A stretch of 64,000 bases of DNA from contig NZ_QMEK01000005.1 in NCBI RefSeq assembly GCF_003390845.1, positions 124,001-188,000 on the forward strand, in the 5' to 3' direction. The stretch's first letter is position 1. Each line of letters begins with the position of its first letter. Below the pieces are notes generated by a model that was not told where the DNA came from, did no database searches, and was given only the letters and a program-made list of their open reading frames with translations. Origin of the DNA: Tropicimonas sp. IMCC34043 (GTDB lineage: Bacteria > Pseudomonadota > Alphaproteobacteria > Rhodobacterales > Rhodobacteraceae). Positions 9,169 through 61,229 of the stretch are shown piece after piece. The translations under genes were made by a program, and so were the position numbers.

Positions 9169-9873
9169 ATGACTTCCGTCATGCCGGGCAGGGCCGTCGG
9201 GCGCAACGCCGGAGCGGTGAAATACGATGTTCTGACGGCGCTTGGTGCCTTCGCTCTGACTCAGGACCGGGCGTTGCAGATCCTTGTCCTGCGGTTGATC
9301 CTGTTGATCACGGCACGCTACAACTGGCAGCGCGCCGAGTTCTGTGTCGGCCGCCCGGAAATGGCGCGGCTCTGGGGCATCGACGTTCGACAGGTCAAGC
9401 GCATCGTCGCACGCCTTCTGTCGCTCGGCTGGATCGAGGTCCGGCGTGCCGGGGCTCGCGGCCGGATCACCACCTACACGGTGCGTTTCGACACGATCCT
9501 TTCGGTCAGCGAGATTGCCTGGGACAACGTCGGCGCGGATTTCGTCGCCCGGATGCGCGAGGCGACGGGCCGCAGCGCTGCACCCGAGCAGGGCTCGGTC
9601 GTTCCCTTTCCGACCCGGCCGCGCGATACGATTGTCGAGGACGGCCCATGGGGGCAGGTACGGGCGCGGATCGCCGCCGCCGACCCCGCGCTTTATGCAG
9701 CCTGGATCGCGCCATTGGTCCCCGCGGGGAACGACGACGCAACCCTGCTGTTGAGGGCGCCCAGCCGGTTTCACGCAAGCTACGTTGCGACCCACCACGC
9801 GGCGCGGTTGCTGGCCGAATTGCGGCTGATCGGGGCAGGGCAGGGGGGGCTAAGGATCCTGCCGCCTGGCTGA
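9169..9873 (+). CDS. DnaA-like plasmid replication initiator
   Basis: This 234-residue protein has an N-terminal winged-helix-like part (about 45-110, with VGRPEMARLWGIDVRQVKRIV and LGWIEVRRAG) and a C-terminal segment (about 160-230, WGQVRARIAAADPALYAAWI ... LLLRAPSRFHASYV) resembling the N-terminal domain of chromosomal DnaA. This is the make-up of the DnaA-like replicases known from Rhodobacterales plasmids. It has no AAA+ ATPase, so it should recruit the helicase rather than melt DNA as DnaA does. The gene diverges from parAB across the origin-like region. A one-mismatch parS-like palindrome lies in the coding sequence at 9717-9732 (VPAGN), and a half-site follows the stop codon. Confidence 0.85.
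   Translation: MTSVMPGRAVGRNAGAVKYDVLTALGAFALTQDRALQILVLRLILLITARYNWQRAEFCVGRPEMARLWGIDVRQVKRIVARLLSLGWIEVRRAGARGRITTYTVRFDTILSVSEIAWDNVGADFVARMREATGRSAAPEQGSVVPFPTRPRDTIVEDGPWGQVRARIAAADPALYAAWIAPLVPAGNDDATLLLRAPSRFHASYVATHHAARLLAELRLIGAGQGGLRILPPG
9717..9732. repeat. parS-like palindrome inside rep (one mismatch)
   Basis: GGTCCCCGCGGGGAAC differs from the other copies only at its second base. It is read as V-P-A-G-N in the same codon phase as the parA copy. Confidence 0.7.
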
Positions 9874-9877
9874 TCGG

Positions 9878-9886
9878 GTTCCCCGC
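9878..9886. repeat. parS-like half-site after rep
   Basis: GTTCCCCGC matches the left half of the palindrome; the right half is absent. It lies 5 bases beyond the rep stop codon and marks the right edge of the palindrome cluster. Confidence 0.4.
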
Positions 9887-10154
9887 CTCAGCGATACAAA
9901 GTTGCGAATTCCTGCATATGAGAGCGTTTGCATATCGTGCACTGAGCCGCCTGAGAGCGGGTGGGCGAAAGGGCCGGACAGGGTGACGCTGGGCTGGCCT
10001 TTTGCTTGTTTCGCGGTGCCTCAGACCCTAAACACTGTCCAGATTGCGAAGTGGCATACGGTTCAGACGGGCAGGGGCCCGAAACCGAGTCGCCAGTTGA
10101 CGCGCGCGGCTGGCCCTGAGGCCGGCGGAAACGATAACGAGGGGAGCCAGGGAC

Positions 10155-12350
<2,196 letters not shown>

Positions 12351-12374
12351 GGCGTCGGGCGGAACCAGACGAAT

Positions 12375-12410
12375 GGGCGCGCGGGAGACCGCGCGCCCGT
12401 TTCGCATTTT
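12375..12410 (+). terminator. Rho-independent-like terminator after icd
   Basis: Perfect 10-bp stem GGGCGCGCGG / CCGCGCGCCC with a GAGA loop (12375-12398), followed by GTTTCGCATTTT. It lies 24 bases past the icd stop. Confidence 0.75.
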
Positions 12411-12592
12411 GGCGGTGAAGGGACCCCATGCGCGGATGCGCTGCCTGTGCATCAAACCTGCATGCATGTTAGGCTTGCTGCAACGGATCGGCGGTTTGAC
12501 GACCCTGCGCCCGGCCACCCCCTTGCATCGGCCGCCGGGGTATTGGACTACCAGCGCAACCACAAGCGACACCACAGGGATAAGGGCACCAC

Positions 12593-13609
12593 ATGAAGAC
12601 CGCGTTTCAGATCTGCGCACTCGGCCTCGCCATCAGCGCCAACGCAGCCGGCGCCGAAACGCTCACCATCTCGTGGTGGGGCTATAACGGCGAAAAGCTG
12701 AATGCCAACATCATCGAACCGTTCAAGGCACAATGCGGTTGCGACGTGGTGTTCGAAACCGGCAACAACGCCGACCGTCTGGGCAAGCTGCAGGCCCGCG
12801 GCGGCAAAGGCGTCGACGTGATCTATCTGACCGACAGCTATTCCCAGATCGGGATCGAAGCCGGGATCTTCCAGAAGATCGACCGCGAACGCCTGCCGAA
12901 CCTCAAGAACGTCTATGCCATGGCGCGCGACCCCCAGGGCGGCTATGGCCCGGCCTATACCATCGGCCGCGTCGGTATCGTTTTTGACGCCGCCAAGGTT
13001 ACCCCGGTTACCTCGTGGAACGAGCTCTGGCGCGACGACCTGAAGGGCACGATCACGCTGCCCGGCATCACCACGACCGCGGGTCCGATGGTCGTGATCC
13101 AGGCCGGCAAGCACGCCGGCGTCGATCCCTTCACCCAGCCCGATCCGACCTTCGCCGCCATCGAGGCGCTGAAGCCCAACACCGTGAAGAACTACAACAC
13201 CGGCTCCGAGATGGTGAACCTGATCTCGACCGGCGAGGCCACCGTTGCCGTGGCGCAGGACTTCACCATGGCCTCGCTCCAGGCGGCGGTTCCGACCATG
13301 ACCTGGGCGACGCTGGAGGATGGCGACATTGCCACGCTCAACACCGTCAATATCCCGAAGGGGGCCGAGAACCCGGACCTCGCCTATGCCTTCATCGACT
13401 TCATCCTGTCCCTGCCTGTCCAGCAGGTGAACGCCGAACAGGGCGTCGATGCGCCGGTGAACATGGGTGTGGACCTGACCCCGGAACAGGCCTCGATCTG
13501 GACCTACGGCTCCGAGGCGATCGAAAAGCTGAACCGCATGAACTATGCCCAGATGAACGCCGCCAAGGCCGACTGGATCGACCGCTGGAACGAGATTTTC
13601 GGCATGTGA
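12593..13609 (+). CDS. Polyamine-type ABC transporter substrate-binding protein
   Basis: This 338-residue periplasmic binding protein (PotD/extracellular solute-binding family 1 type) has a signal peptide with likely cleavage after ANAAGA (residue 21). The mature protein starts ETLTISWWGYNGEKL, a typical beginning for the spermidine/putrescine group. AGGGATAAGG precedes the ATG. It is the first gene of an operon with two permeases, an ATPase and three hydrolases. The ligand cannot be read from sequence; the downstream nucleoside hydrolase and deaminase-like enzyme leave nucleoside-like or amine-containing compounds open besides polyamines. Confidence 0.88.
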   Translation: MKTAFQICALGLAISANAAGAETLTISWWGYNGEKLNANIIEPFKAQCGCDVVFETGNNADRLGKLQARGGKGVDVIYLTDSYSQIGIEAGIFQKIDRERLPNLKNVYAMARDPQGGYGPAYTIGRVGIVFDAAKVTPVTSWNELWRDDLKGTITLPGITTTAGPMVVIQAGKHAGVDPFTQPDPTFAAIEALKPNTVKNYNTGSEMVNLISTGEATVAVAQDFTMASLQAAVPTMTWATLEDGDIATLNTVNIPKGAENPDLAYAFIDFILSLPVQQVNAEQGVDAPVNMGVDLTPEQASIWTYGSEAIEKLNRMNYAQMNAAKADWIDRWNEIFGM

Positions 13610-48719: not shown

Positions 48720-49352
48720 TCAGTCCTCGTCCGCCTCGCCATGCGCGTCCCAGCCCGTGATCATCGCCTTGATCTGTGAGCTCACCGTCTCGCCCGTCGT
48801 GATCAGATACAAGTGAGAGATCAGGAAGGCGGCAATCAGGTAGGCAGCGGCGAGATGGACGGCATTGACCCACAGAACGGGCAGATCGCCCGGGAACAGG
48901 TCCGGGAACTTGCTGTAACCCCACAAGATCAGGCCGGAAATCCAGATAGCCGGTGCCATGATCACCTGGAAGGCCAGATAGACGATGGCCTGCAGCGGGT
49001 TGTACTTGCGCTTGGCGCTCGACCGAAACGGGTGCGGCGCACCGATGAAGATGCCGAAGGCATAGAACGAGACGGTCGCCCACAACCGGTCCGAGGTCGG
49101 CAGGTATTGCCGCCACTCCCCGGTCACGACATGCCAGAAGATCGCAAACGCCAGCAGAACGACGAGGGCGAAGGCGGCAAGGATGTGGAGGTTCAGCGCT
49201 CGCTCGAAGCCGAACAGGTGCCAGAACCCGTGGATCTCGAAGCCGGTCAGCAGCAGGAAGATGACGAGCGCCGCCTGCGACCAGTGCCAGACCCGCTCGA
49301 ACAGCGTGAAGATATAGACCCGTCCGGCTTTCGGTAGATCAATGTCAGTCAT
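48720..49352 (-). CDS. Cytochrome b (b561-like) membrane subunit
   Basis: This 210-residue protein with four predicted membrane helices has histidines suited to bind two hemes, in ERVWHWSQ, NLHILAAF, AVHLAAAY and FLISHLYL. The start ATG 49352 overlaps the end of the nine-heme cytochrome gene by 8 bases. As in related operons, it should anchor the periplasmic cytochromes and exchange electrons with quinol. Confidence 0.88.
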   Translation of the reverse strand: MTDIDLPKAGRVYIFTLFERVWHWSQAALVIFLLLTGFEIHGFWHLFGFERALNLHILAAFALVVLLAFAIFWHVVTGEWRQYLPTSDRLWATVSFYAFGIFIGAPHPFRSSAKRKYNPLQAIVYLAFQVIMAPAIWISGLILWGYSKFPDLFPGDLPVLWVNAVHLAAAYLIAAFLISHLYLITTGETVSSQIKAMITGWDAHGEADED

Positions 49353-51111
49353 GGCGGCGCCTCCGGTAGAACAGTCCAAATCCGACCCGGAGCATCGCAT
49401 GGATCAGCGAGGCGGCAAGCGTGGCAGCAAGGATCGTCAGCCCGGCCCAGTCGAGCATGGAAAATCCGTCGCGCCGGGGGACAAAGCCGCCGGGCAGGTC
49501 GGCCAGCAAACCGTCTGATGCGTGGCAGGCCTCGCAGGCGAGGGCCTGCTCGGCGGGCGCAACCATGTGATTGACCGGTATCATCTGCCGAACCTGGGCG
49601 AAGGCGACGTCGCCGCTGAACGGGAGGTCGGCGGCCTCCATTCCGGCCCCGACCGCCTTCTCCCAGTCGAAGCGGTTCCACAGCGCATCGCCACTGCGGC
49701 CGGAAAATTTCACCGACGCGATGTGCCGGTTCTCGGCATCGACGGGAATGACCGAGTGCATCACCTTGACGGGCGCGATCCGGGACTGGGCGTCCGACGC
49801 ATCGCCCGCGTAGGAGGCGATCCAGGGCGCGTTGGCGAAAGCGCGTTCGATGGCGTCGAGATCCATGCCGCCGTCGCCCGCGTCGGCCTCAGCCTCTGTT
49901 GCTGCCGGCTCTGGCAAGGCATCGCCCGGGCGGTGCGGGTCGAGCTGGCCGTTCGACCAGATCAGGGTCGGCCGGATGTCGTTGGCCGCCGCCAGATTGC
50001 CCTTTTCGGTCGAATAGGTGATCTGCCCGGTCTTGTCCTTGTCGACCATCGGCTTGCGGTCGCGTCCCAGTTTGCCGATGCTCGACCAGTCCCACAGGAT
50101 CCGCGTCGATGTCTCGCCGCGTGCAAGCGCCGGGATGTGGCAGGTCTCGCAGGCGACCCGGTCAATGTGCCGGTCAAGCCGCGCGCCGCTTGCGACTGCC
50201 TTGTGCGGCGTGGCGCTGTGGCAGCCCTGACAGGACGCCGCCGCCCCGGCCAGCGCCGGGCGGTCGGGGGCCGCACTGGGCGCGCCCTCGTAGCGGCTTC
50301 CCGCAATGGCGTGGTCGCGGGTGGTGTGGCAGGTGCTGCAGGTAAATCCGGCGCCGTCGGGCGCGGCTGCCATGTGCACGTCGAGCGTCGCGGCGGGATC
50401 TATCAGGTCGGCATTCAGATCGCCGTGTTTGACCCCGCCACCGCCGTCGGCATTGAAATGGCACGAACCGCAGCTTGCCCGCGTCGACGGGCCGACCGAC
50501 CGGGCCGCGATGGCCAGATCCTTGACCTCGGGTGTGTCGCCACGAGGCCGCTCGTCATGGCACATGGAACAGGCGGCACCGCCTTCGTGGAAATTGGCGA
50601 TGGACCATTGTCCGGTCGGCTCATGGCAGCTGAGGCAATCGACCGGCGCCACCGGCTCGCTTGATGCGTCAAACATCGCCGGGTCGTCGAACCGCGTGCC
50701 CGAGATATGGCACGAGGTGCAGGCGTCGAGGTTGGACGGGGTGGACAGCAGGAACCCGTTGGCGAGATGGCGCATGCCAAGCAGCCCCGCGTCGCCTTCC
50801 GCCGGCGCTTCGGCGGATGCAGGCGGCCAGGTCCAGGTGAAATGGATTGTGCCGTGGAGCTGCTCGGGCCCGGTGTTGTGGCACGACAGGCAGGCCTGAT
50901 TGACCTCCTCGGCATTCTTGAATGGCCCGGCCAATGCCTCGAACCGGCTGTGATCGGCGGTGGAGGTCGGGAGGGAAACAGATGTCGCCGAGAGGGGTGG
51001 CGCGTCCGGCGGCCCCTCCGATGCGCTCGTTTGCGCCGCGGTCGGCGAGGCGGTCGCCCCCGCCAGGCCGATGATCAGCGTCAGGCAGCGGAGCCAGGGC
51101 CCTGCCATCAT
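49345..51111 (-). CDS. Nine-CXXCH cytochrome c, octaheme tetrathionate reductase-like
   Basis: Exported multiheme cytochrome of about 588 residues, with signal peptide ending near SPTAAQ and a C-terminal membrane helix (about 555-578, WAGLTILAATLAASLIHAML). CXXCH motifs in order are CLSCH, CTSCH, CLSCH, CSMCH, CGSCH, CSTCH, CQGCH, CETCH and CEACH, nine in all. The layout resembles the octaheme tetrathionate reductase family, whose members reduce tetrathionate, nitrite or hydroxylamine in vitro. Physiological substrate here is unknown. ATG 51111 is chosen (GGAAAGGGG upstream); ATG 51135 is an alternative. It overlaps the cytochrome b gene. Confidence 0.85.
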   Translation of the reverse strand: MMAGPWLRCLTLIIGLAGATASPTAAQTSASEGPPDAPPLSATSVSLPTSTADHSRFEALAGPFKNAEEVNQACLSCHNTGPEQLHGTIHFTWTWPPASAEAPAEGDAGLLGMRHLANGFLLSTPSNLDACTSCHISGTRFDDPAMFDASSEPVAPVDCLSCHEPTGQWSIANFHEGGAACSMCHDERPRGDTPEVKDLAIAARSVGPSTRASCGSCHFNADGGGGVKHGDLNADLIDPAATLDVHMAAAPDGAGFTCSTCHTTRDHAIAGSRYEGAPSAAPDRPALAGAAASCQGCHSATPHKAVASGARLDRHIDRVACETCHIPALARGETSTRILWDWSSIGKLGRDRKPMVDKDKTGQITYSTEKGNLAAANDIRPTLIWSNGQLDPHRPGDALPEPAATEAEADAGDGGMDLDAIERAFANAPWIASYAGDASDAQSRIAPVKVMHSVIPVDAENRHIASVKFSGRSGDALWNRFDWEKAVGAGMEAADLPFSGDVAFAQVRQMIPVNHMVAPAEQALACEACHASDGLLADLPGGFVPRRDGFSMLDWAGLTILAATLAASLIHAMLRVGFGLFYRRRRHD

Positions 51112-51202
51112 GTTCGCCCCTTTCCAATAGTGCATTCCGTCGACAGAAACGGCCGCCGGGGCGGCCGCTTCGGTTGGTTCAGGCCTCAGGTCGCCCAGCC
51201 CG

Positions 51203-52504
51203 TCATTTCGGTCGCGCGCCGGACATCTCGACGCCGCTGCCGGCTGTCGACAGATCGGCGATGCTGTCCTGCATCAGTTGAAGAACGTAATAGGCATTGT
51301 GCGTGTAGGCGCCCGGGTCCTTCGCAACCACTTGGTAGTTATAGGCGGCCTTCAGCATCCGGGGCGTAAAGCCCTGGTAGCGGTTGGGGAACTTGGCCTC
51401 GCCTTCCTCGATCGCGCCGCTGCCGTCGCTGTCCTGGAAGAAGTAGGGATAGGCATCCTTGTCATAGGCAACCGCGGTGCCGACGACGTCCTTGCCATAG
51501 CCCTGAATGGCCAGAAGAAGCTGGTCATGAACGGTCTGGATCTCGGCATAGATACCTTCGCTGGTGTCGCCGTTGCCGTCAAAGTCCGCCTTCGAGGTGC
51601 GGATAAGCTGAAGCGATTTCTTGTCGTCTCCCACGACCTCGTCGTGGCATTCCGCGCAGGTGTTGACCTTCACCTTGAGGGTATGGGGGCTGTGGCAATC
51701 GTTGCAGGTCTGCGAATCCCGGTCATGGAAGTAATAGCCGGCATACTCCTGTCCGTCGTATTCGAAGCCACCATGGACCTCGCCGCCGAACCGGGTGGCG
51801 GCCGCTGCACGATAGTGGATGTTGACGAACTCGATCTCTGCCGAGGCCGTATCGTCGTTTGCCACACCAGCCTTCTCGATTGCCTCGTTGACCTGAACGG
51901 TCGAGGCGCGGCCGCCGTGGCAGGTCATGCAGCGCACGTCGGGGGTGAAGACCTCCTGCTCGACGCCAGAGGGAAAGGTCACGGAGGTCATGTGTTGGGA
52001 CACTTCGTTGTGGCATGCCATGCAGGCGATCCCCGGTGCGACCGCCGGATCGGGCGAATGCTTCACATCAACGACGCCAGCCGCGCTGCCGTCCGCGCCG
52101 AGATAATCCATGAAGCCCGCCGTCGAGTGACATTTCGAGCAGGTCTCCGGGATCATCTTGTCGTCTTCGGTATCCCAGTGGCGGAATGCCTCGCGGGTAA
52201 TATTGGCGTGGGGCGACTGGCGCCACAGATCGAGGTTCGGGATCTCGGGCATCAGGGTCGCCGGCGCGGGGATCGCAGAAGCGGCGCTGTCCTGGGCCTC
52301 GGCCATCGAATGACGCGTCATCCCGCTCCAACCGGCGAGCCCCGCCGCGAGGATCATCACCAGGGCAGCCCGTGCCAGAAATCCGGCTGGCAGCCTTCGG
52401 CCTTGCGCGCCTTCTACGCGGTCTGTGACCGCCCGCGTGAGGCCCGTACAGGCCGAGATGGCAAAAGTGACACTACCGCTGGCTGCTTCTGGCGCGCGTT
52501 CCAT
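51203..52504 (-). CDS. Membrane-anchored pentaheme cytochrome c with EF-hand-like loops
   Basis: This 433-residue protein has an N-terminal anchor or signal (about 40-60) and five CXXCH motifs: CSKCH, CMACH, CMTCH, CNDCH and CAECH. After the heme part it contains two acidic loops, DFDGNGDTSEG and DSDGSGAIEEGE, which match the calcium-binding EF-hand loop pattern. AGGGAGGAC precedes ATG 52504. It is first gene of the cytochrome operon, downstream of an FNR-like box. It probably relays electrons between the cytochrome b/nine-heme complex and a periplasmic partner. Confidence 0.83.
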   Translation of the reverse strand: MERAPEAASGSVTFAISACTGLTRAVTDRVEGAQGRRLPAGFLARAALVMILAAGLAGWSGMTRHSMAEAQDSAASAIPAPATLMPEIPNLDLWRQSPHANITREAFRHWDTEDDKMIPETCSKCHSTAGFMDYLGADGSAAGVVDVKHSPDPAVAPGIACMACHNEVSQHMTSVTFPSGVEQEVFTPDVRCMTCHGGRASTVQVNEAIEKAGVANDDTASAEIEFVNIHYRAAAATRFGGEVHGGFEYDGQEYAGYYFHDRDSQTCNDCHSPHTLKVKVNTCAECHDEVVGDDKKSLQLIRTSKADFDGNGDTSEGIYAEIQTVHDQLLLAIQGYGKDVVGTAVAYDKDAYPYFFQDSDGSGAIEEGEAKFPNRYQGFTPRMLKAAYNYQVVAKDPGAYTHNAYYVLQLMQDSIADLSTAGSGVEMSGARPK

Positions 52505-52841: not shown

Positions 52842-55757
52842 CTAGCCGCCGGAACCGCCGTCCGTCAATCCGGCGAGGAAGGCAACGGCGCTCCGGCTTG
52901 GCAGGAAGAAATAGGCACCGCCGCGAATGCGCACCACATCATTGAAGCCTTGCGCGAACATTGGACCGTAGGATGTTGGAATGGTTAGCTGCCCACCCTT
53001 TCCGCCGCGACCGACAATGGCATCGACCTCGTCGGTCAGCCCGTGAAACTGCCGCGACATCGCCCAGGTTTGCTGGACGAACTCGAACTGCCGTTCGAGA
53101 TCGCCATTGAGGCACAGAAACAGCAGCCCGCGCTTGCGCGAGGCGCCGCGGCCGCGCGCATAGGGTCGGCCGACGCGGAGGATCCGGTGGCGGTTCACGA
53201 TCGAAAGCTGTTCGTCGGAGCCCGGCTCGAAGCTCTCGCGCGGGTTGCTTCGGCGGATATGGGCGCTGTAGGGACAGCGCTTGCCGTCCGGGTCCTCCAG
53301 CCCGTGCAGGAAGTCATTGTCAGGCGCGATCGGCGTCTCGCCATCCCAGCCGCTCGCGGGCTCGAAGGGATGCCGTGTCAGAGAGCTTCCATCCGGCCAC
53401 CGGCCCACCGATTTCGCGGTGATCCAGGTCGCGAACTGCTCGCGGGACAGGCCGTGCGGCCGGGCCGGGTGATCGGCCAGTCGGTCGGCCAGATCCAGCG
53501 CCTGCTGGTGGAACCGGCCCACGTCCTGCTCCATCTCGCGGATCACGAGGTACGAGCCGTTCCGCCCGAGGTCGCGGTCGGCATTGGCGGTGCTGCGGCG
53601 GAAATCCGGCCAGGCGGCATCGGCAATGTCGGTATCCACGGCAGGCAGGCGGTTTGCCGGGTCCGCTGTCGCTGCGACCCTCGGCGAGGGCGGCAGGAAG
53701 CCGCGGTTGTCGGGATAACCGAGGATGAATTCGCCCGGTTCGACCACGTCGCGCGAATTCTGGTTCGTCGACCAGCGCGGGATCCCGCGCAGGATCGGCT
53801 GCGATATGCCGTCTACAAAGCCGAACGGCTCGCGCACCGGGCCGTCCTTTGGCAGGCGCTCGGTCTCGACCGTCGCAACCACCGTGCCGCCGGACTCCTT
53901 CAGCGCCTCGACGATCTCGCTGGCGTGGGTCTCGGCACTGTTCTTTTTCCTCTCGTCGGGAACCCGGGACAGCACATAGAGCGCCACATCGACGGGCTTT
54001 TCCGGCTGTCCCCAGTTCCAGGAGGCGGGTTTGTCGTCTCCGGTGTCCATCAGGACCGAGCGCGCGCGGCGCGGCTCTGCCATGCCCTGGCGGAACGCGG
54101 CGGGGAAGGTGGCAAGCTCTGCCTCGGTCAGCCCGAAGCGGCCGAGGCCGGTTGCGGTCAGCGCGAGGATGGTGGCCGTTTCGCCGGGCTTGTCGTCGCC
54201 ATAGGAGACCAGAGGCTCGACCTTGCGCAGCCAGTCGCGCGCCGCGTTGGGCTCCTCGGGCAACCGGATCAGGTGGCAGACACCATCGCGCAGCGACCCC
54301 ATACCACCGAACAGGATCTTCTGGATCTCGTCGGTCTGCAGCGATGCCGCCCGTCGCTGGCAGGACCCGAACAGGTCGAACCAGGCGGCCGCCTCGTCCT
54401 CGGTCGCCGCCGTCAGCAGCCCGTGGCGGATCGCGGCATTCAGCCGGACGGTATGTGCGGTCTTGTTCGGATAGGCGCGATACCAGAACCAGGAGGGCCG
54501 CTGCTGGCGCCGCGCCCACCGCTTGAACCGGTCGCCATCGGTCGCGCCGTCGAAAAACAGGTTCGAAGTGCGCGGAAAGCCCTCGGTATTGCTCCAGACC
54601 CCGGTCAGCCCGTTCGAGGCCTTGGTGATGAAATCCTCAAGGTAGCTCTCCCAACTGCCGCTGAAGTTTGAGAAAAACAGCAGCTTGTCGGTGCCCGGCA
54701 ACAGCACCCAGCGTGCAGAGTGGATCGTCCCAAGCTCGCCGAGAAAGCCCGGACGGAACCGTGTCGCGGCAAGCTCGCCGACGAACCAGAAGGCAAGGCG
54801 CAGCGTGAACTGGCGCAACCAGCCGGCCTTCATCACCGAGATTCCGGCGAGGTGGTTCACGTCGCCGTCGTTCTCGATGCCCATGACATCGCTCAGAACC
54901 TTGTAGTCGGGTGCGCTGTCGTCCGGCGCGACATTCGTCTCCTGACGGCGCAGCCCGGCATAGATGACGCCTGCCACCGCGATCAGGACGAGTGCCCAGA
55001 GCACGAGGACCAGCGCCGCCATGCCGATCCCCGCCCAGGGGCCCGAGGTTGCGCCGATCCAGACCCCCGCCAGAAGTGTCGTGAGCGCCGCGACGATCAG
55101 GCCCGGCCCGGCGAAGTTCACGATACCCCGCCCGACCAGCCCAAGGAGCGTGGCAGGCCCGAACGGGGTTTTCCTGACGGGATAGAGAAAGGCCACGTCG
55201 TCGGTCACCATCATGTCGGCATTGGCCTCGTCCTTCGCGACGGTCTCGCGGATTGCGCGCAGCCGCCGCAGTTGCGAGCCGCCGCTTCGATCCGCCACGA
55301 CGAGGTCGCGCAGCCTGTTGGCAAAATCCTCTTCGCGGAAGATGCGGTCCACCGTCATTCCCGGAATGCCACGGTGGTTCAGCCCCGGCACCGAGAACAG
55401 CCCGGTCCCGGTCTGGATGGAATGCGACCGGAGCAGCCCGGCGATATTGCCCGCCGAAACCCGGATGCCCGCCGCATCGAAGATCGCCATCAGGCTGTCC
55501 GACAGGTTGTCTGCCAGCGTCCGGATCGCTGTCCTCGCGTCGCCGTCATGGGAGGATTCGAGCACCAGGAATGCGCCCGAGCCGCCCCCCTCCGGCACCG
55601 TGGTGATGCTGAGGAAATGCACGCCCTTGCCGCGCAGGTTGTTGCGTACGCGGCCGCCGCGATAGGCTTCTCGTCCTTCGGTCGCGAGGGTTTCGTCAAC
55701 CGCGGCGATCCGGGTGCCGTCGAAGGGCAGGGCGACGGTCAGAAAGGTAAAGCTCAT
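52842..55757 (-). CDS. Large membrane-anchored DyP-type peroxidase
   Basis: Protein of 971 residues, about twice the usual DyP length. The C-terminal part (about 500-965) is a DyP-type heme peroxidase: distal GFVDG (646-650, Asp649), proximal His833 in YSAHIRRSNPR, and NRHRILRVGRPY after it. Two hydrophobic stretches (about 201-233 and 241-268) form a membrane hairpin. The regions 40-160 and 340-450 contain similar-looking strands and helices (VHFLSITTVPEGG; LLFFSNFSGSWESYLEDFI), probably ferredoxin-like folds. No signal peptide or Tat motif was seen. Its ATG overlaps the P450 stop by 4 bases, so both proteins are made together and very likely act on one substrate. Confidence 0.88.
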   Translation of the reverse strand: MSFTFLTVALPFDGTRIAAVDETLATEGREAYRGGRVRNNLRGKGVHFLSITTVPEGGGSGAFLVLESSHDGDARTAIRTLADNLSDSLMAIFDAAGIRVSAGNIAGLLRSHSIQTGTGLFSVPGLNHRGIPGMTVDRIFREEDFANRLRDLVVADRSGGSQLRRLRAIRETVAKDEANADMMVTDDVAFLYPVRKTPFGPATLLGLVGRGIVNFAGPGLIVAALTTLLAGVWIGATSGPWAGIGMAALVLVLWALVLIAVAGVIYAGLRRQETNVAPDDSAPDYKVLSDVMGIENDGDVNHLAGISVMKAGWLRQFTLRLAFWFVGELAATRFRPGFLGELGTIHSARWVLLPGTDKLLFFSNFSGSWESYLEDFITKASNGLTGVWSNTEGFPRTSNLFFDGATDGDRFKRWARRQQRPSWFWYRAYPNKTAHTVRLNAAIRHGLLTAATEDEAAAWFDLFGSCQRRAASLQTDEIQKILFGGMGSLRDGVCHLIRLPEEPNAARDWLRKVEPLVSYGDDKPGETATILALTATGLGRFGLTEAELATFPAAFRQGMAEPRRARSVLMDTGDDKPASWNWGQPEKPVDVALYVLSRVPDERKKNSAETHASEIVEALKESGGTVVATVETERLPKDGPVREPFGFVDGISQPILRGIPRWSTNQNSRDVVEPGEFILGYPDNRGFLPPSPRVAATADPANRLPAVDTDIADAAWPDFRRSTANADRDLGRNGSYLVIREMEQDVGRFHQQALDLADRLADHPARPHGLSREQFATWITAKSVGRWPDGSSLTRHPFEPASGWDGETPIAPDNDFLHGLEDPDGKRCPYSAHIRRSNPRESFEPGSDEQLSIVNRHRILRVGRPYARGRGASRKRGLLFLCLNGDLERQFEFVQQTWAMSRQFHGLTDEVDAIVGRGGKGGQLTIPTSYGPMFAQGFNDVVRIRGGAYFFLPSRSAVAFLAGLTDGGSGG

Positions 55758-57733
55758 TGGTCTGCTCCGAGCCGGACGATCATTTCATCGGGAAAGGGTC
55801 CGCGGGTGCGAAAGCGTTCGACCCCGCTCGCACCCGCCCGCAGCAGATGCGCCACCAGCGCCGGGATCTGCCAGTCGTTGACATCGCGGCCCGAGCAGCA
55901 ATGCAGCCCATAGCCGAAATGCAGGTAGCGGTTCCTCTCCCGCCCGGGCAGCAGCCGGCCCGGCCGCGGGAACTGGCGCGCGTCCTGCATGGCGGCAAGC
56001 GTCACCGGGATCACGCTGGTGCCGGGCGCGATCTGCATCTGGCCGAGAGAGGTTGCGTGCCGGGTCTTGCGCAGGACGATCGGGTTGTGGGGAAGCTGGC
56101 GCAGCGCCTCGTAGCACCAGCCGAGCATCCGGTCGGGATCGTCGAGATCGCGCCGCACCTCCTGAAGCCTTTGCCGCCGCGACAGCAGAACCTTCGCGGC
56201 TTTTGCGACCGAGGTCGCCGTCGTGTCGACGGCGCCGACGATCAACCCGGCCAGCATCCAGCGCACCGCCTCGGGATCGAGCGGCAGGTCCTTTTGCGCC
56301 CGGATCAGGCCGCCGAGAACGTCGTCCCCGGGCGTGTCGCCGCGCCGCGCGATTTCGGCGTCGATCCAGTCGCCCAGTTCGCGCCCCGCGGCGATCCCGG
56401 TGTCGCGCACGACGCGGTCGTTCTTGGGATTGAGGAAGGTCTCGTGGAACACCGCCCGCAGCACGCGGGTCATGTCGGCCTCGGTCGGGCCTGTGATGCC
56501 GAAGATCGCCGTTGCGGTTCGTGCGGCCACCAGTCGGGCATAGCCGTTGACCACGTCGATCCTGCCGTACCGCTCTGCCGCATCCGCAAGCAGGCGCTGC
56601 GCCTCGGTGTCGAGTATGGTGCGGGCCGGGCTGATCCGCGCCGCGCGCATCGCGGTATAGACCGCCTCGCGCTGCGCGAAGATGTCGGGCGCCGTACGAT
56701 CCATGCCGAGGATGAAGGGTCCGCTGACCGCCGTGATCTTTTCCTTGTTGACGGGTTCGATGGCGAAATCGCTGTCGCGCCGCAGCACCTCGGTGGCATT
56801 CTGCCACGAGAGCGCGAGGACGGCGCCGCGCAGGCGCAGGGTCGGGCGAAAGCGCACGAGGCTCCGCAGCGCCAGCGCGGGAAGCGTCGAACCGGTCAGC
56901 CATCCGGTCAGGGACCAATCGCGGCCGGGCCGTTTCATCGGCGGCTGCGGTTCGGGCCGCGCGAGCTCGTAGGTTTCCCCCGCGATCCTGCCAGCGGGAT
57001 GCGCACGATAACGCTCGACAATCTCGCGATAGGCCGCCGGCAATTCGTCGAGCGAGGGCAGGGGGGCCGCGAACCTCCCCGGCAGCAGCAGCGGCCCCGA
57101 GAGCGAGGCAAAGACGATATCCGCCGTCCCCGGCCGGTCACCGCCAAGGAAGCGCTGCCCTTCGCAGGCGGCACCGACCGCGTCGAAGGCCGCGTCGATA
57201 CTGGCAAGCGTCGCCTCCAGATCGAAATTCTCCAGCTTGATCCCGGCGACCATCGCCTTGTGCCAGAAGCGAAAGCCCTTCGAGACCAGGAATTTCTGCC
57301 AGTCCGGCGCGCGATCCAGGGCGTATTTCGTCACCGTCTCCCGGTTATCGAGCATGAAATGGTAATAGGTCTGAACCGCGGGCCAGAAGAGCTTGTCATA
57401 GAACAGATCGACCCATTCGAGGGTCTGCGCCCGCTCGGCCTCTGTTTCGCCAAGCAGCCGCTGCCCCGGCCGCGTCTTGGCGTCGAGCCCGAGAAGAAAC
57501 CCCTTCAGCCCGACCCATGGCCCATCCGGCGTCAGGACCAGCGGCAGCTCGATCCCGACCCGGTGGCGTCTTGACACAAAGGCATGAAAGATCGGCGCAT
57601 GGGCCTGTTCCTCGTAGGGAATGTGCCAGGTCTCGAAGAGCCAGCGCGCCATTTCGACCGGAGGGCCGAGCCGCGTCGATACCAGCACATGGCGCGGCAG
57701 CTCGGGCGTCGTTCCATTCGCAGGACTTTCCAT
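55754..57733 (-). CDS. GST-like domain fused to cytochrome P450
   Basis: Fusion of about 659 residues. Residues 13-258 are glutathione-S-transferase-like: a thioredoxin-type start VSTRLGPPVEMARWLFETW and a helical C-half with RPGTADIVFASL. Residues 275-655 form a P450: I-helix AGLIVGAVDTTATSV, ExxR in YEALRQLPHNP, and heme loop FGYGLHCCSGRD with Cys613 as axial ligand. The I-helix Asp-Thr-Thr fits a monooxygenase. No ferredoxin or reductase gene is adjacent, so electrons come from elsewhere or the enzyme uses a peroxide. ATG 57733 has GGGGGG-rich sequence upstream; a longer frame to 57850 is less likely. It is first gene of the pair with the DyP peroxidase. Confidence 0.88.
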   Translation of the reverse strand: MESPANGTTPELPRHVLVSTRLGPPVEMARWLFETWHIPYEEQAHAPIFHAFVSRRHRVGIELPLVLTPDGPWVGLKGFLLGLDAKTRPGQRLLGETEAERAQTLEWVDLFYDKLFWPAVQTYYHFMLDNRETVTKYALDRAPDWQKFLVSKGFRFWHKAMVAGIKLENFDLEATLASIDAAFDAVGAACEGQRFLGGDRPGTADIVFASLSGPLLLPGRFAAPLPSLDELPAAYREIVERYRAHPAGRIAGETYELARPEPQPPMKRPGRDWSLTGWLTGSTLPALALRSLVRFRPTLRLRGAVLALSWQNATEVLRRDSDFAIEPVNKEKITAVSGPFILGMDRTAPDIFAQREAVYTAMRAARISPARTILDTEAQRLLADAAERYGRIDVVNGYARLVAARTATAIFGITGPTEADMTRVLRAVFHETFLNPKNDRVVRDTGIAAGRELGDWIDAEIARRGDTPGDDVLGGLIRAQKDLPLDPEAVRWMLAGLIVGAVDTTATSVAKAAKVLLSRRQRLQEVRRDLDDPDRMLGWCYEALRQLPHNPIVLRKTRHATSLGQMQIAPGTSVIPVTLAAMQDARQFPRPGRLLPGRERNRYLHFGYGLHCCSGRDVNDWQIPALVAHLLRAGASGVERFRTRGPFPDEMIVRLGADQ

Positions 57734-58250: not shown

Positions 58251-58736
58251 TCAGGCGCGCGCGGTCGTGCTTTCCTCATAAAGCCAGACCATCCGATCCA
58301 GGAACCAGAGCTTGGCGCCCATTGCGAGGATCCATCCCGCGAGCAGCAGACCGGGCAACAGGGCCCAGAGAGCGACCGCAATCAGCAGGCATCCAGTCGC
58401 TGACGCCAGGGACAACAGGCTGGCGATGCGCCGGTGTTCCTCCCGGATCGGTTGGTCACGGTGCGCAAGCAGGATGCGCTCGCCCAGCACGCCCTTTGTC
58501 ATCCAGGCGGTCTTTGATGCCGGGGGTTTGAACAAACGTGGATTCAGCCAAGTCCAGATCAGCACCAGCGCGATTGCGGCCAGCGACCACCACTCAATCC
58601 AGACCCTGCTCCAGACGGCGGCGGAAAGCAGCGGCAGGATCGTGAGCCGCGACCAGCCGCTGAGCGGATTGGAATGGCGTTGCCATGTTGCATCGTCCAT
58701 CGCCATCAGGCGTTCGCTCAATCTCCAGCCGTTCAT
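58251..58736 (-). CDS. Small membrane protein, DUF6653-like
   Basis: This 161-residue protein has hydrophobic segments at about 50-66 and 108-140 and a conserved-looking middle (WTWLNPRLFKPP, MTKGVLGERILLAHR). The pattern resembles the DUF6653 family of bacterial membrane proteins; function is unknown. The ATG at 58736 has AGGAGATCG upstream. Confidence 0.65.
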   Translation of the reverse strand: MNGWRLSERLMAMDDATWQRHSNPLSGWSRLTILPLLSAAVWSRVWIEWWSLAAIALVLIWTWLNPRLFKPPASKTAWMTKGVLGERILLAHRDQPIREEHRRIASLLSLASATGCLLIAVALWALLPGLLLAGWILAMGAKLWFLDRMVWLYEESTTARA

Positions 58737-58966
58737 GTTTCGATCTCCTGCAAACTGTCAGGCGAATTGGGGGCAAAGCGGTTGGAAACCACCTTGGCCG
58801 CCGGGTTGTCCTATGCCAATGGCTTTGCCGGCAAGACCGCAGTGCCAATGGGGTATCGACGGCGTTTGTGTCGGACGCTGTGGTGGCAAGTAATTTTCGT
58901 CGCCGCGCATCCTGACACGTCTGCTCTCCCTGTCCCTCTTGCGCGCTTCCCGCTATATGCGCCTTT

Positions 58967-59308
58967 ATGACCGAGACCCTGCCTCCGTGCCCCGAATGTC
59001 ACTCTGCCTACACCTATCAGGCGGATACCCTGCTCAGCTGCCCCGAATGCGGGCACGAATGGTCGCCCGATGGCCCGCTTGAGGCCGGCGCCGAGGTGCG
59101 CGACAGCGTGGGCAATCCGCTCGCGGACGGTGACACCGTTACCGTGATCAAGGACCTGAAACTGAAGGGGTCGTCCAGCGTGATCAAGGTCGGCACCAAG
59201 GTGCGCGGTATCCGTCTGGTCGACGGCGATCACGATATCGACTGCAAGATCCCGGGGGTCGGGCAGATCGGCCTCAAGTCGCAATTCGTCAAGAAAGTCG
59301 TCGACTGA
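58967..59308 (+). CDS. PhnA/YjdM-family zinc-ribbon protein
   Basis: A 113-residue protein with an N-terminal zinc ribbon (CPECHSAY ... CPECGHEW) and the PhnA domain with VRDSVGNPLADGDTVTVIKDLKLKGSSSVIK-type sequence (family segment VIKDLKLKGSS). Despite the historical phn name these proteins are not required for phosphonate use, and their function is not settled. It stands alone on the plus strand. Confidence 0.93.
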   Translation: MTETLPPCPECHSAYTYQADTLLSCPECGHEWSPDGPLEAGAEVRDSVGNPLADGDTVTVIKDLKLKGSSSVIKVGTKVRGIRLVDGDHDIDCKIPGVGQIGLKSQFVKKVVD

Positions 59309-59400
59309 GCCGCAACCGGAACCGCCGAAACCTTGCCGATCCCGGCATGTGCCATGACGGTGATTGATTTGACAGGGACGGCGGCCGGTTCGGTCGCTGT

Positions 59401-59796
59401 CTAGTCCTCGGAGCGATCCGAGGTCTCACGGCCCCGCGCGTAGTGAGACTTGAGCGGAAAATCGGGCAACCAGGCTTCGCGACGGACGGTCCAGAGTTCG
59501 TAGGTCGGTATCAGCTGGTCTGGAGCATCAAGGGACCCAAGGTGCACCTCGATCTCGTCATCGCTCTGCGAAAAGACCGACGAGCCACAGATCGGACAGA
59601 AAAAACGCCCGGCGTAGTCGCGTGTTTCACCTTCTATTTCGACCGCATCCTGCGGGAACACTGCAGACGCATGAAAGAGCGCTCCGTGATGTTTGCGACA
59701 GTCCATGCAGTGGCAGATACCGACCCTGTATGGGGCGCCCGACGCCACAACCCTTACCTTGCCACACAGGCAGCCCCCGGCTACGCGGTTCATCAT
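59401..59796 (-). CDS. GFA/CENP-V-like zinc protein
   Basis: The 131-residue protein belongs to the glutathione-dependent formaldehyde-activating (GFA) family. Zinc ligands are visible in GGCLCGKVRV, CHCMDCRKHHG and FFCPICGSSVFS. ATG 59796 follows AGGAGGCAG. Members bind zinc through a distinctive fold; true formaldehyde activity has been shown for few. The exact role is unknown. Confidence 0.9.
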   Translation of the reverse strand: MMNRVAGGCLCGKVRVVASGAPYRVGICHCMDCRKHHGALFHASAVFPQDAVEIEGETRDYAGRFFCPICGSSVFSQSDDEIEVHLGSLDAPDQLIPTYELWTVRREAWLPDFPLKSHYARGRETSDRSED

Positions 59797-60054
59797 CTGC
59801 CTCCTGCATAGTCTGGCCGCCTTGGGGACTATGCCCACGCGCTATCGCGGCGGCAAGCGTGGTTGGCAGCCTTCGACAGGCGGCAGGTCCTGGGACAAAC
59901 GCGGCCTTGAGCCCGACCTCGCGGCACACATCACTCATGAAAGGGCGGGGCTGTCGCCCTCTATCGTTCGGTGCCGGGTTGTGATTGAGGCACCTTCAGC
60001 GCGGAAGCTGCGGCGTTGGCACGGAACGGCGCGCGGGCGTCCCTACTAACCGTC

Positions 60055-61092
60055 TCATACACCGCGTGACTGTGCGCGCAGGTCTGTCGGGGTCTTTCCG
60101 GTCCAGCCGCGGAAGGCCCGCCAGAACGCGGTGCCGTCGGCATAGCCAAGCGAGGCGGCGATTGCCTCGACGCTCAGATCGCTCGACGTGAGAAGCCAGG
60201 ATGCCCTGTCGCGCCGATAGGTGCGGATCAGATCGCTGAGCGACAGCCCCTCTTCCGCCAGCGCCCGCTGCAGGCTGCGCGGCGACATGTCGAGCAGGGC
60301 AGAGATGGTCTGCAAGGTGACGGGGCGGGCACCGAGGTAGAGGACAATCAGCGCCTTGACCTTGTCTGACAGCCTTGACGCATGATGGGTCTTGGCGATC
60401 AGGTCCGAGATGTGGCGTTCGATCAGGGCGATCAGATCGGGATCCTCGGTGCGGTGAACCCGGGTCGCATCGTCCATGGCGATCACGATCAGGTTCGATG
60501 CCTGATCGAAACGAAGCGGTGCGCCGAACACCTGTTCCAGTTGCCTTCTGCAACTCGGTTCGGCGTGACGGAAATGAACCTCCATCGGACGCCAGCGCGG
60601 ATCGAAACCAGCCCTGATCAGCGAGCAGATGCAGGACAGCGAGAACTCGGCATCCTGCCGCTTTGGCGCCTTGGCGATGTCGGTAATGAGATAGCGCAGC
60701 AGCAGGCAATCGCCGTCGGCCTCGATCACGGATTCCGTGCCGCTCTGCAAGGCGCTCGAGAACCGCGCCAGCGCCTCGAGACCGCTCTGCATCGTGCCGG
60801 CCTGGACGGCGCGCAGGCCGATCGGGCCAAGGTTTCCCGGCCGCATCTCGGCCCCCAGACGCGCGCCCAGCAACTCGTCGTCTGCCATCGCCGCGGCCTG
60901 TTCGAAAAAGTTCAGGTAAAGGTGCAGGGGAATCGGGGCATATGGGTCCTCGACGATGCCCGGCGACAGCCCGTTCTGGTGAAGCAAAGTCCTAACCTTG
61001 CCCGCATCTTTCGCAAACCGGTCCAAAATCGGCTTAAGAACTAATGCCCTTAAACACGGCATTTCGGGCAATGGAGCGCTGGTATTCGACAT
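60055..61092 (-). CDS. AraC-family transcriptional regulator
   Basis: Regulator of 345 residues from ATG 61092 (AAAGGCAAG upstream). Residues 15-200 form the arabinose-binding-like domain of the OruR/ArgR-type subgroup. The C-terminal 100 residues contain two helix-turn-helix motifs (LQTISALLDMSPRSLQRAL; SVEAIAASLGYADGTAFWRAF). It diverges from the permease gene at 61230 across about 137 bp, so control of permease and downstream enzyme is likely. Confidence 0.92.
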   Translation of the reverse strand: MSNTSAPLPEMPCLRALVLKPILDRFAKDAGKVRTLLHQNGLSPGIVEDPYAPIPLHLYLNFFEQAAAMADDELLGARLGAEMRPGNLGPIGLRAVQAGTMQSGLEALARFSSALQSGTESVIEADGDCLLLRYLITDIAKAPKRQDAEFSLSCICSLIRAGFDPRWRPMEVHFRHAEPSCRRQLEQVFGAPLRFDQASNLIVIAMDDATRVHRTEDPDLIALIERHISDLIAKTHHASRLSDKVKALIVLYLGARPVTLQTISALLDMSPRSLQRALAEEGLSLSDLIRTYRRDRASWLLTSSDLSVEAIAASLGYADGTAFWRAFRGWTGKTPTDLRAQSRGV

Positions 61093-61229
61093 TCTTGCCT
61101 TTAGCCCGGCCAAAGCCACCCATTGGCGCAAACTATCGGATTTTTGTCGCAAGCTGCAATAGGCAGGGTGCACTGCCGCTTCTTTAGCTCACTCCCCATA
61201 ACCGCACAACGAACACCGGGAACGTGGAA
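61093..61229. promoter_or_regulatory. Divergent control region, AraC regulator / permease
   Basis: The interval contains an inverted repeat GGCAGGGTGCACTGCC (61162-61177) and nearby TTGTCGCAAGCTGCAA (61144-61159), with partial symmetry. Either could be an AraC-family site. Promoter elements were not clear. Confidence 0.35.

Follow-up and report, generated by a model that had tools for sequence, protein, structure and literature searches.

The window, by which we mean the whole stretch of 64,000 nucleotides that was analysed, carries on its reverse strand two open reading frames overlapping by four bases, as a first-pass annotation of the DNA had described, and the heme ligands of both encoded enzymes are intact (Table 1). 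The upstream gene, whose start codon is preceded by a G-rich stretch resembling a ribosome-binding site, encodes a glutathione transferase (GST)-like domain followed by a cytochrome P450, and the downstream gene encodes a DyP-type peroxidase behind a long N-terminal half. Multiheme cytochromes flank the pair on one side and DUF6653 and GFA genes on the other; no lipid gene was recognised among the genes next to the pair.

Table 1. Features of the gene pair, in window coordinates. In alignment A5 the window is accompanied by 43 of the 49 loci remaining when at most two are kept for each genus label, and in A6 by 34 of 36.
Feature	Position	Strand	Basis or remark
GST-P450 gene, 659 aa	55754..57733	(-)	ATG at 57733
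N-half and DyP gene, 971 aa	52842..55757	(-)	ATG start
Stop/start overlap of the P450 and DyP genes, 4 bp	55754..55757	(-)	
GST-like domain, residues ~16-258	56960..57688	(-)	GST_C_2 below cut-off; helix/strand order in model
Cytochrome P450 domain, residues ~275-659	55757..56911	(-)	Pfam p450; Foldseek
I-helix Asp503-Thr504, acid-alcohol pair	56222..56227	(-)	Alignment A6; most relatives Pro-Thr
ExxR motif, Glu542-Arg545	56099..56110	(-)	E and R in 91/92 rows, D and R in the remaining row
Heme-Cys motif FGYGLHCCSG, Cys613	55889..55918	(-)	Invariant in A6
First ferredoxin-like unit, residues 1-140	55338..55757	(-)	Beta-alpha-beta-beta-alpha-beta order in model
Two-helix membrane hairpin, residues 201-275	54933..55157	(-)	Model and hydrophobic peaks
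N-module (second ferredoxin-like unit), residues 289-465, invariant His346	54363..54893	(-)	Alignments A3, A5, A7
DyP peroxidase domain, residues 490-964	52866..54290	(-)	TIGR01413; PDB profile and fold matches
GFVDG motif, distal Asp649	53808..53822	(-)	Asp in 126/127 rows, 1 gap
Proximal heme ligand His833	53259..53261	(-)	His in 125/127 rows, 2 gaps
Arg858, Arg861 (one is the expected distal Arg)	53175..53186	(-)	124/127 (1 Gln, 2 gaps); 125/127 (2 gaps)

Assignment of the upstream protein draws on motifs, profiles and structure. Firstly, the hallmarks of a cytochrome P450 are present, namely the heme cysteine within FxxGxxxCxG and an ExxR motif; the reading frame matches Pfam p450 above the curated cut-off (3.7e-7), and the top Foldseek match of this domain is a P450 (E 1.3e-15), with a fold closest to ordinary bacterial monooxygenases. 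Secondly, in the AlphaFold2 model of the protein (pLDDT 87.2) the order of elements in the N-terminal part fits the GST fold, and the GST_C_2 match in the window (1.3e-4, 22.4 bits) falls slightly under a cut-off of 24.9 that the separate-gene P450 homologues L117, L141 and L153 pass (L numbers denote loci), so that the joining of a GST-like domain to a P450 proposed by the first-pass annotation stands. A Pfam GST match is absent from the relatives L087 and L145, and of the 39 loci whose P450 gene is separate, 11 have GST-like sequence fused or close by. Glutathione transferases characteristically carry, at the glutathione site, a Glu/Gln-Ser motif following a cis-proline; this ES/QS site is absent here, the rows of A6, read by eye, showing LPLV...WVGLKG.

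Within the downstream reading frame no Pfam family was found at 1e-3, and the match to TIGR01413 (8.1e-21, 74.7 bits) lies under the cut-off of 100.5, which the fusion protein of L060 exceeds. A 44-row profile nevertheless matches the Deinococcus radiodurans DyP structures (4.5e-74 and 1.6e-72), which Foldseek likewise ranks first and second (TM 0.84-0.85 by target length), and the DyP hallmarks are all present: the GxxDG aspartate, a proximal histidine (His833, the ligand expected for a DyP), a distal arginine and two ferredoxin-like domains. These matches and the conserved Asp, His and Arg bear out the earlier identification of a DyP peroxidase, as does the model that of a membrane hairpin, whose paired helices (residues 201-238 and 240-275) coincide with the hydrophobicity peaks. 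The charges around it (three positive and one negative on the N flank, none of either sign in the turn, two positive and three negative on the C flank) weakly favour a location of both ends in the cytosol. The N-terminal half, formerly called unassigned, is predicted to consist of two ferredoxin-like units around the hairpin, the first of which matches the N-module weakly by profile (E 8e-5, probability 61%). A family with a solved relative was considered for the N-module and rejected: because the top PDB sequence match is weak (E 0.008) and to an unrelated lyase, the module was left without a sequence assignment. It is encoded by a separate gene in L027, L028, L032, L035, L125, L126, L127 and L156.

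The first-pass annotation had called for a genome survey and would have given up its reading had the pairing not been conserved in relatives. Among the 80 best of 352 relatives found, 42 encode P450, N-half and DyP in a single open reading frame, 22 have an adjacent P450 gene and 16 have none by HMM; a P450 is thus fused or adjoining in 64 of the 80, and 42 of these 64 are one protein. One locus scored as lacking a P450, L071, has a weak one (Pfam 4.4e-5) immediately upstream, and the protein alignments of the 80 loci exclude L044, L047 and L105, in which DyP is truncated or split, the first two lying on 3.4-kb contigs. Where the P450 gene is separate, an identical four-base overlap recurs, by gene starts from the analysis's own gene caller, in 8 of the 22 relatives (L043, L056, L066, L073, L087, L091, L107 and L115). 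Fusion has taken several forms: L032 has the reversed order, DyP then P450, L030 has DyP and P450 in one reading frame with no N-module before the contig ends, and L151 joins N-module, DyP, a divergent P450 and a GDSL hydrolase within 1599 residues. Natural fusions include the Chelativorans protein (L060) and SARO_RS19865 of Novosphingobium aromaticivorans. Across 36 loci, P450 and DyP distances correlate (r 0.67, with none of 2000 permutations as high), shared ancestry being left in this figure. In a 398-genome sample of the phylum the N-module occurs in 27 genomes, each time beside a DyP, and the partner is a P450 in 17 (16 by HMM and G514 by profile match, E 2e-10), a catalase-family protein in 7 and neither in 3.

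Because of the fusions and the shared overlap we reject chance adjacency as a hardly credible explanation, against which recurrence across families and a genome with two P450 candidates also argue. What chance adjacency does have on its side is the window's own clade in a tree of these proteins, where 13 of 16 rows, including one from a 3.4-kb contig, have no nearby P450, so that the DyP half can occur by itself or with its partner encoded far away. This tree was built quickly, from no more than two rows for any label (Mesorhizobium being allowed three); several of its deep forks stay open, and four of its branches, those of L151, L148, L026 and L124, are long. L091 and L152, whose contigs duplicate those of L024 and L043 to judge by their equal lengths, are absent from the tree and still inside the counts of 127 and 90 used here. 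Since many other bacteria have P450 and DyP side by side or joined in one protein, the two enzymes very probably cooperate, and that they act together would seem close to certain.

The P450 can also be exchanged for another heme protein. A catalase-family partner is found in 13 of 127 loci (a count that skips L030, L033 and L034, and in which L151 is scored as having none despite its divergent P450), and in none of the 127 do a P450 and a catalase-type gene occur together within 5 kb. In L137 DyP and catalase share one reading frame, and in L156 the D. radiodurans DyP (DR_A0145, PDB 8re2/8re3) is flanked by an N-module gene on one side and a catalase-family gene on the other. Although this protein is the nearest solved structure to the window DyP, its locus differs in having no P450, a separate N-module gene, no fused hairpin and a catalase partner. 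Self-sufficient P450s and catalase-related proteins are both known partners of fatty-acid dioxygenases (PMC13049297), and the P450/catalase-family exchange mirrors this, which strengthens the likeness to fungal peroxidase-P450 fusions noted in the first-pass annotation. Taken together, intact heme ligands, conserved pairing, repeated fusion, a conserved N-half with membrane and ferredoxin-like parts and the catalase-family swap indicate that the pair is, to judge from comparative sequence data, very probably one functional unit.

With regard to chemistry, all 90 DyP-linked P450s retain the heme cysteine, while the I-helix acid is kept in 19, lost in 70 (67 Pro, 2 Ala, 1 Gly) and opposite a gap in one, as against 28 kept and one lost among 29 control P450s (27 listed matches with the locus present, no DyP link and a reading frame obtained, plus L033 and L034), suggesting peroxide chemistry in the linked enzymes. 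The window P450 is one of the 19 and in its Asp503-Thr504 resembles canonical O2-activating monooxygenases. A CYP152-type peroxygenase was rejected: CYP152 enzymes have Arg-Pro at this I-helix position, unlike the linked P450s, which mostly carry Pro at the acid position and retain Thr. The earlier remark that no redox partner is nearby holds for ferredoxins; multiheme cytochromes do adjoin the pair. Specifically, the adjacent ferredoxin gene expected of a class I P450 was found neither by motif, in a scan of predicted genes no longer than 200 aa at the loci of the 80 best relatives, nor by Fer2 search of the window's contig, which holds none of the genome's seven matches; some true class I P450s likewise have no such neighbour. 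A conventional O2/NAD(P)H monooxygenase served by a ferredoxin encoded elsewhere, with DyP clearing stray H2O2, would suit the retained Asp-Thr, the Fer2 proteins of the genome and the monooxygenase-like fold. We regard it as rather unlikely, given that such a guard predicts a catalase-type protein accompanying the P450, a combination seen at none of the 127 loci, and that most linked P450s have lost the acid and have no ferredoxin beside them by motif.

Neighbouring genes at other loci bear on the substrate. Oleate hydratase, 3-hydroxyacyl-CoA dehydrogenase and thioesterase genes accompany the system in L125 and L127, 3-hydroxyacyl-CoA dehydrogenase in L156 and L158, acyl-CoA dehydrogenase and MaoC in L123, patatin in L032 and an LCAT-like gene in L027; a clear fatty-acid gene is absent from 7 of 12 annotated plasmid loci (L124, L126, L157, L159, L197, L198 and L199). 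With the patatin, LCAT-like, oleate hydratase and 3-hydroxyacyl-CoA dehydrogenase genes and GDSL hydrolases at some loci, an acyl-lipid substrate is an even call. Of the earlier proposal that P450 and peroxidase act in sequence on a lipid, the coupling is thus upheld by the fused or adjacent genes of 64 in 80 relatives, and the lipid has gene context behind it at some loci only. Against the proposal stand the 13 of 16 rows of the window's clade that have no nearby P450 and the Asp-Thr pair that the window P450 shares with ordinary O2-using P450s.

Other neighbours point to signalling in the fused branch: a class III cyclase lies directly 5' of 46 of the 64 P450 loci, a Crp-family gene lies downstream on the opposite strand in 40 of the 42 fused loci, and the annotated record L197 has the same order. 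A module that destroys or senses H2O2 or organic peroxides and reports through cyclic-nucleotide signalling would accommodate these genes as well as the catalase-family partners and the D. radiodurans member. It is nonetheless improbable, since the window has no cyclase match and none of the 16 P450-less loci (two on 3.4-kb contigs) has a cyclase directly upstream, lipid genes are present at other loci, and at physiological pH the D. radiodurans enzyme shows no activity (PMC10820274). The two heme enzymes might instead tailor a membrane-borne intermediate on the way to a specialised metabolite (aromatic, terpenoid, carotenoid or hopanoid). Such a pathway could explain the sporadic N-module (7 of 60 relatives as well as 27 of the 398 phylum genomes) and the plasmid copies (31 records in one search, 35 in another); it appears quite improbable, as the window pair stands alone and the genes seen beside the system do not include a recurring biosynthetic set. 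A known anti-phage system was also rejected, with no PADLOC match among six proteins.

Our preferred reading, held tentatively and at somewhat less than an even chance, is that the two heme enzymes form a coupled (hydro)peroxide system, which may act on acyl lipids and would work in the manner of the fungal dioxygenase-P450s. The system would be held at the inner membrane, probably on its cytosolic face, through the hairpin of the DyP protein; the DyP half would produce or handle the (hydro)peroxide of some hydrophobic substrate, probably an acyl lipid, the second heme enzyme (P450 here, catalase-like elsewhere) would rearrange or use that peroxide with no electron-transfer partner, and the GST-like domain may deal with a reactive product. 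In fungi, plants, corals and Nostoc, P450s and catalase-related enzymes take over the product of a dioxygenase in this way. A second step fed by peroxide is an evenly balanced proposal, less sure for the Asp-Thr P450 of the window, and it is doubtful that DyP acts first; we know of no DyP that is a fatty-acid dioxygenase. Also against the main reading stand the retained Asp-Thr and monooxygenase-like fold of the window P450, the 13 of 16 clade rows without a P450, the missing lipid gene beside the pair, the plasmid loci with no clear fatty-acid gene and the signalling neighbours in the fused branch. A wider reading, possible but on balance unlikely, is a widespread, undescribed bacterial oxylipin-type machine in which a DyP-fold enzyme anchored in the membrane would independently have replaced the COX-like dioxygenase or lipoxygenase and would feed a lipid hydroperoxide to an exchangeable P450 or catalase-like partner. 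The GST-like domain or cyclase/Crp signalling would then have been added in some branches, and the N-half barrel, with its invariant histidine on the second strand, could hold a third heme.

Fungal dioxygenase-P450 fusions (linoleate diol, allene oxide and epoxy alcohol synthases) also combine a peroxidase-like heme enzyme with a P450, as one protein or pair, with no reductase domain and with a heme motif near FGxGxHxCxG. The bacterial fusions differ in having the DyP ferredoxin-like barrel instead of a COX-type fold, a membrane hairpin and, in most cases, an N-terminal P450, and they are known from sequence alone; membership of the fungal DOX-CYP (Ppo) family was rejected, the COX-fold dioxygenase domain being absent and the partner a DyP. 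The 10S-dioxygenase of Nostoc has a separate catalase-related hydroperoxide lyase (PMC13049297). The present system is similar in that its genetic partner at the 13 loci is a heme protein of the catalase family, and differs in that the partner is DyP plus N-module, with no COX relative, and in that its catalase-family proteins are only putative lyases. The self-sufficient CYP102 and CYP116B are likewise P450s fused to a second enzyme; unlike them, the fusions here have no flavin or iron-sulfur reductase domain. In agreement with the first-pass annotation, which knew of no characterised bacterial example, no description of a P450-DyP pair or fusion was found in the available text of open-licence PMC literature, and other literature may have one.

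If such a lipid-oxidising system is real, bacteria have arrived a second time at the enzymatic oxidation of lipids, starting from unrelated folds, and many root-nodule, soil and marine bacteria have fused the enzymes into one protein. It could account for the inactivity of the crystallised D. radiodurans DyP alone at neutral pH, would provide a concrete partner and substrate class for DyP enzymes, most of which have no known natural substrate, and would offer a reductase-free P450 for use in biocatalysis. In databases the fusions go under the names 'cytochrome P450', 'Dyp-type peroxidase domain-containing protein' and 'hypothetical protein'.

The GST-like/P450 gene and the DyP peroxidase gene, both on the minus strand (see the table of features), overlap by four bases, as the first-pass annotation had reported. 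The next likely minus-strand genes lie approximately 340 bases downstream (51203-52504) and 520 bases upstream (58251-58736), and because of these gaps the pair probably constitutes a two-gene operon. Within the 659-aa protein the GST-like domain precedes the P450, while the 971-aa protein consists of an N-terminal half of approximately 490 residues followed by the DyP domain. AlphaFold2 models of the two proteins (mean pLDDT 87 each), together with fold matches, place the P450 within the ordinary bacterial type, and profile and fold matches ally the DyP half with known DyPs, the best being the Deinococcus radiodurans enzyme.

Features of the window in and around the P450-DyP gene pair
Feature	Position	Strand	Remarks
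Cytochrome b561 type	48720-49400		Part of the multiheme cytochrome cluster beside the pair (48720-52504)
Octaheme tetrathionate-reductase family protein	49345-51135		Multiheme cluster; TIGR04315 above cut-off
Further multiheme protein	51203-52504		Multiheme cluster beside the pair
N-half + DyP gene, 971 aa	52842-55757	-	Open reading frame
GST-like + P450 gene, 659 aa	55754-57733	-	Open reading frame
DUF6653 gene	within 58251-61173		
GFA-family gene	59401-59838		
AraC-type regulator close to QhpR	60055-61173		232 bits vs cut-off of 250

The fold of the N-terminal half was assigned from the succession of strands and helices in the AlphaFold2 model, in which residues 1-130 form a ferredoxin-like unit, 201-275 a pair of long hydrophobic helices and 300-427 another ferredoxin-like unit, ahead of the DyP barrel; the helices agree with the membrane hairpin expected from the initial reading. 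The second unit, here termed the N-module, is encoded by a stand-alone gene at L027, L028, L032 and L035 and likewise at the plasmid loci L125-L127 and L156, and single open reading frames with two N-module matches are present in L026, L134, L135, L137, L144 and L155. Given these double frames and a weak match of the window-type first unit to the N-module profile (E 8e-5, probability 61%), the N-terminal half is probably a tandem duplication with the hairpin in between. Comparison of the N-module with PDB sequences yielded no convincing solved relative. All 22 rows of the N-module alignment share a histidine, placed by the model on the second strand, that resembles in position the heme-binding histidine on beta-2 of the siroheme decarboxylases, members of the same superfamily (PMC4835899), and it is thus possible that the N-module carries a further heme. 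At L031 (10713-13028), tandem frames with three N-module matches lie beside one DyP, with neither P450 nor catalase-type protein found.

The pairing of P450 and peroxidase is conserved in the genomes surveyed. Among 385 genomes of the class, at a threshold of 1e-20, 10 contained a DyP match and nine a P450 match, and the two lay side by side in five genomes other than that of the window (G264, G340, G148, G007, G304). Fetched loci added a P450 and DyP in G107, a fusion in G186 (L032) and a DyP-P450 frame in G091 (L030); those of G252 and G320 showed no P450. Five N-module rows, used as query against a collection of 84,980 genomes, returned 352 relatives, and HMM analysis of the best 80 identified P450, N-terminal half and DyP as a single frame in 42, a P450 gene of its own, immediately upstream and codirectional, in 22, and no P450 in 16. 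The single frames encode 1358-1441 aa in 41 of the 42, the remaining one being cut by a contig end; they span 11 genus labels, more than half being Mesorhizobium, such that locus counts overstate the number of independent cases. The N-module was found in 27 of 398 separately sampled genomes from the phylum, and reading of all 27 loci revealed an adjoining DyP in every one. A P450 is the further partner in 16 of these (six fused) and also in G514, whose 1599-aa frame comprises N-module, DyP, divergent P450 and GDSL hydrolase. Phylum labels of some metagenome bins are not to be trusted: G264 (L091), a bin with the title Candidatus Kuenenia, falls within the window's class and has 40 P450 matches, and the title is probably wrong. 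Occurrence in Deinococcus, Rhodococcus, Streptomyces and Acinetobacter is based on named plasmid records; Streptomyces plasmid locus L157 has N-module and DyP with no recognised partner. Products in plasmid records are labelled 'cytochrome P450', 'hypothetical protein' or 'Dyp-type peroxidase domain-containing protein'.

In seven of the 27 genomes the further partner is instead a catalase-family protein, once in one frame with the DyP (L137), and three (G252, G461, G753) have neither. Across 127 loci, pooled from several searches and thus not a random sample, P450 is fused in 51 and separate in 39, catalase is separate in 12 and fused in one, and 24 have neither; no locus has both a P450 and a catalase-type protein within 5 kb of the DyP. 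That a single position next to this DyP is taken by either of two unrelated heme enzymes is the strongest new fact. On a quick DyP tree of 96 rows, with deep forks partly open, at least four changes between P450 and catalase and at least three between fused and separate P450 are required, and partner swap and fusion therefore each seem to have occurred more than once. The DyP-catalase frame of L137 and a second, separate catalase-family gene of that locus together occupy 4182-5423 and 9655-12387. The catalase-family partners at L134 (5850-7391) and L135 (10833-12026) have Asn at the usual distal His position (AGNTK/GGNTK vs DAHAK), and are thus probably not catalases.

The D. radiodurans DyP, DR_A0145, of known crystal structure, has a gene flanked by those of an N-module and a catalase-family protein (locus L156), and a 3-hydroxyacyl-CoA dehydrogenase gene precedes the three. 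This DyP was reported by its authors to be inactive at physiological pH, and they speculate that other proteins, such as encapsulin, may govern it (PMC10820274). DR_A0146, taken from gene order to be the catalase gene of L156, is reported to scavenge H2O2 less efficiently than KatE1 (PMC7143949). The exchange of P450 for catalase-type protein is telling because both P450s and catalase-related proteins are known to process lipid hydroperoxides, with precedents in fungi, plants and Nostoc (PMC13049297) and, as lipoxygenase-hydroperoxide-enzyme fusions, in coral (PMC5617202). Nothing on a P450-DyP pair was found in PMC8312274 or PMC11719350, and searches of open-licence papers yielded no description of such a unit.

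Catalytic residues of the DyPs were counted across 127 rows: the Asp of GxxDG is present in 126, the proximal His in 125 and Arg861 in 125, all remaining rows being gaps, and Arg858 in 124, the others being one Gln and gaps. The heme Cys is retained in all 90 DyP-linked P450s. The I-helix acid is D/E in only 19 of the 90 vs 28 of 29 control P450s (27 from ten searched genomes, plus L033 and L034); the position is Pro in 67, with Thr usually retained, and among the 51 fused P450s it is Pro in 49, Gly in one (L032) and a gap in one, counts that derive from one MAFFT alignment of related sequences and are not independent events. The window P450 is among those with Asp. Where the acid is lost, the P450 may receive peroxide instead of activating O2. 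Under the mechanism we propose, both enzymes would probably lie at the membrane facing the cytosol, where a membrane-borne acyl substrate would enter, one heme would make or activate a peroxide and the other would convert it to product, with no reductase.

Among the best 80 of the 352 relatives, the gene immediately upstream encodes a class III cyclase with TPR/AAA parts in 39 of 42 fused, seven of 22 separate and none of 16 P450-less loci, and a Crp-family gene lies downstream on the opposite strand in 40 of 42 fused loci and none of the 38 others. This order recurs in one annotated record; the 64 kb of the window match neither profile. The cyclase accompanies the fused branch and those separate-P450 loci with I-helix GFxPT; examples that immediately precede the P450 and carry TPR or AAA (STAND-like) parts are L060 (4142-5728), L067 (2529-5738), L090 (2487-5897) and L118 (2793-5822). 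GST-like sequence was found in the 39 separate-P450 loci, fused to the P450 in at least six and separate nearby in at least five, and in none of the other 88 of the 127, counts that are lower bounds from an HMM built on one sequence and in which L043 and L152 represent a single contig. Twelve annotated plasmid loci (L123-L127, L156-L159, L197-L199) were read; five (L123, L125, L127, L156, L158; L125 and L127 being near copies) contain fatty-acid genes within the stretch concerned, and seven contain no clear one. Hydrolase neighbours include a patatin (L032) and an LCAT-like hydrolase (L027), and L151 has a fused GDSL hydrolase that scores 30.4 bits, below the Pfam cut-off of 32.9, although GDS, GGND and a His near the end can be made out by eye.

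The nearest relative is Tropicimonas sp. IMCC6043 (L043), and the N-module was found in one of eight congeners tested. Its pair and that of the window share 71% DNA identity over 4.9 kb, and the cytochrome region common to both loci, a partly shared multiheme cluster, differs in relative orientation; the pair has been kept together through a rearrangement. The L043 locus also encodes a trypsin/endonuclease-phosphatase protein (10313-13324), with which DyP neighbours in P450-less Rhizobium loci (L048, 4773-6740; L199, 3666-5636) cluster; one neighbour in L199 is annotated as a DNA/RNA non-specific endonuclease.
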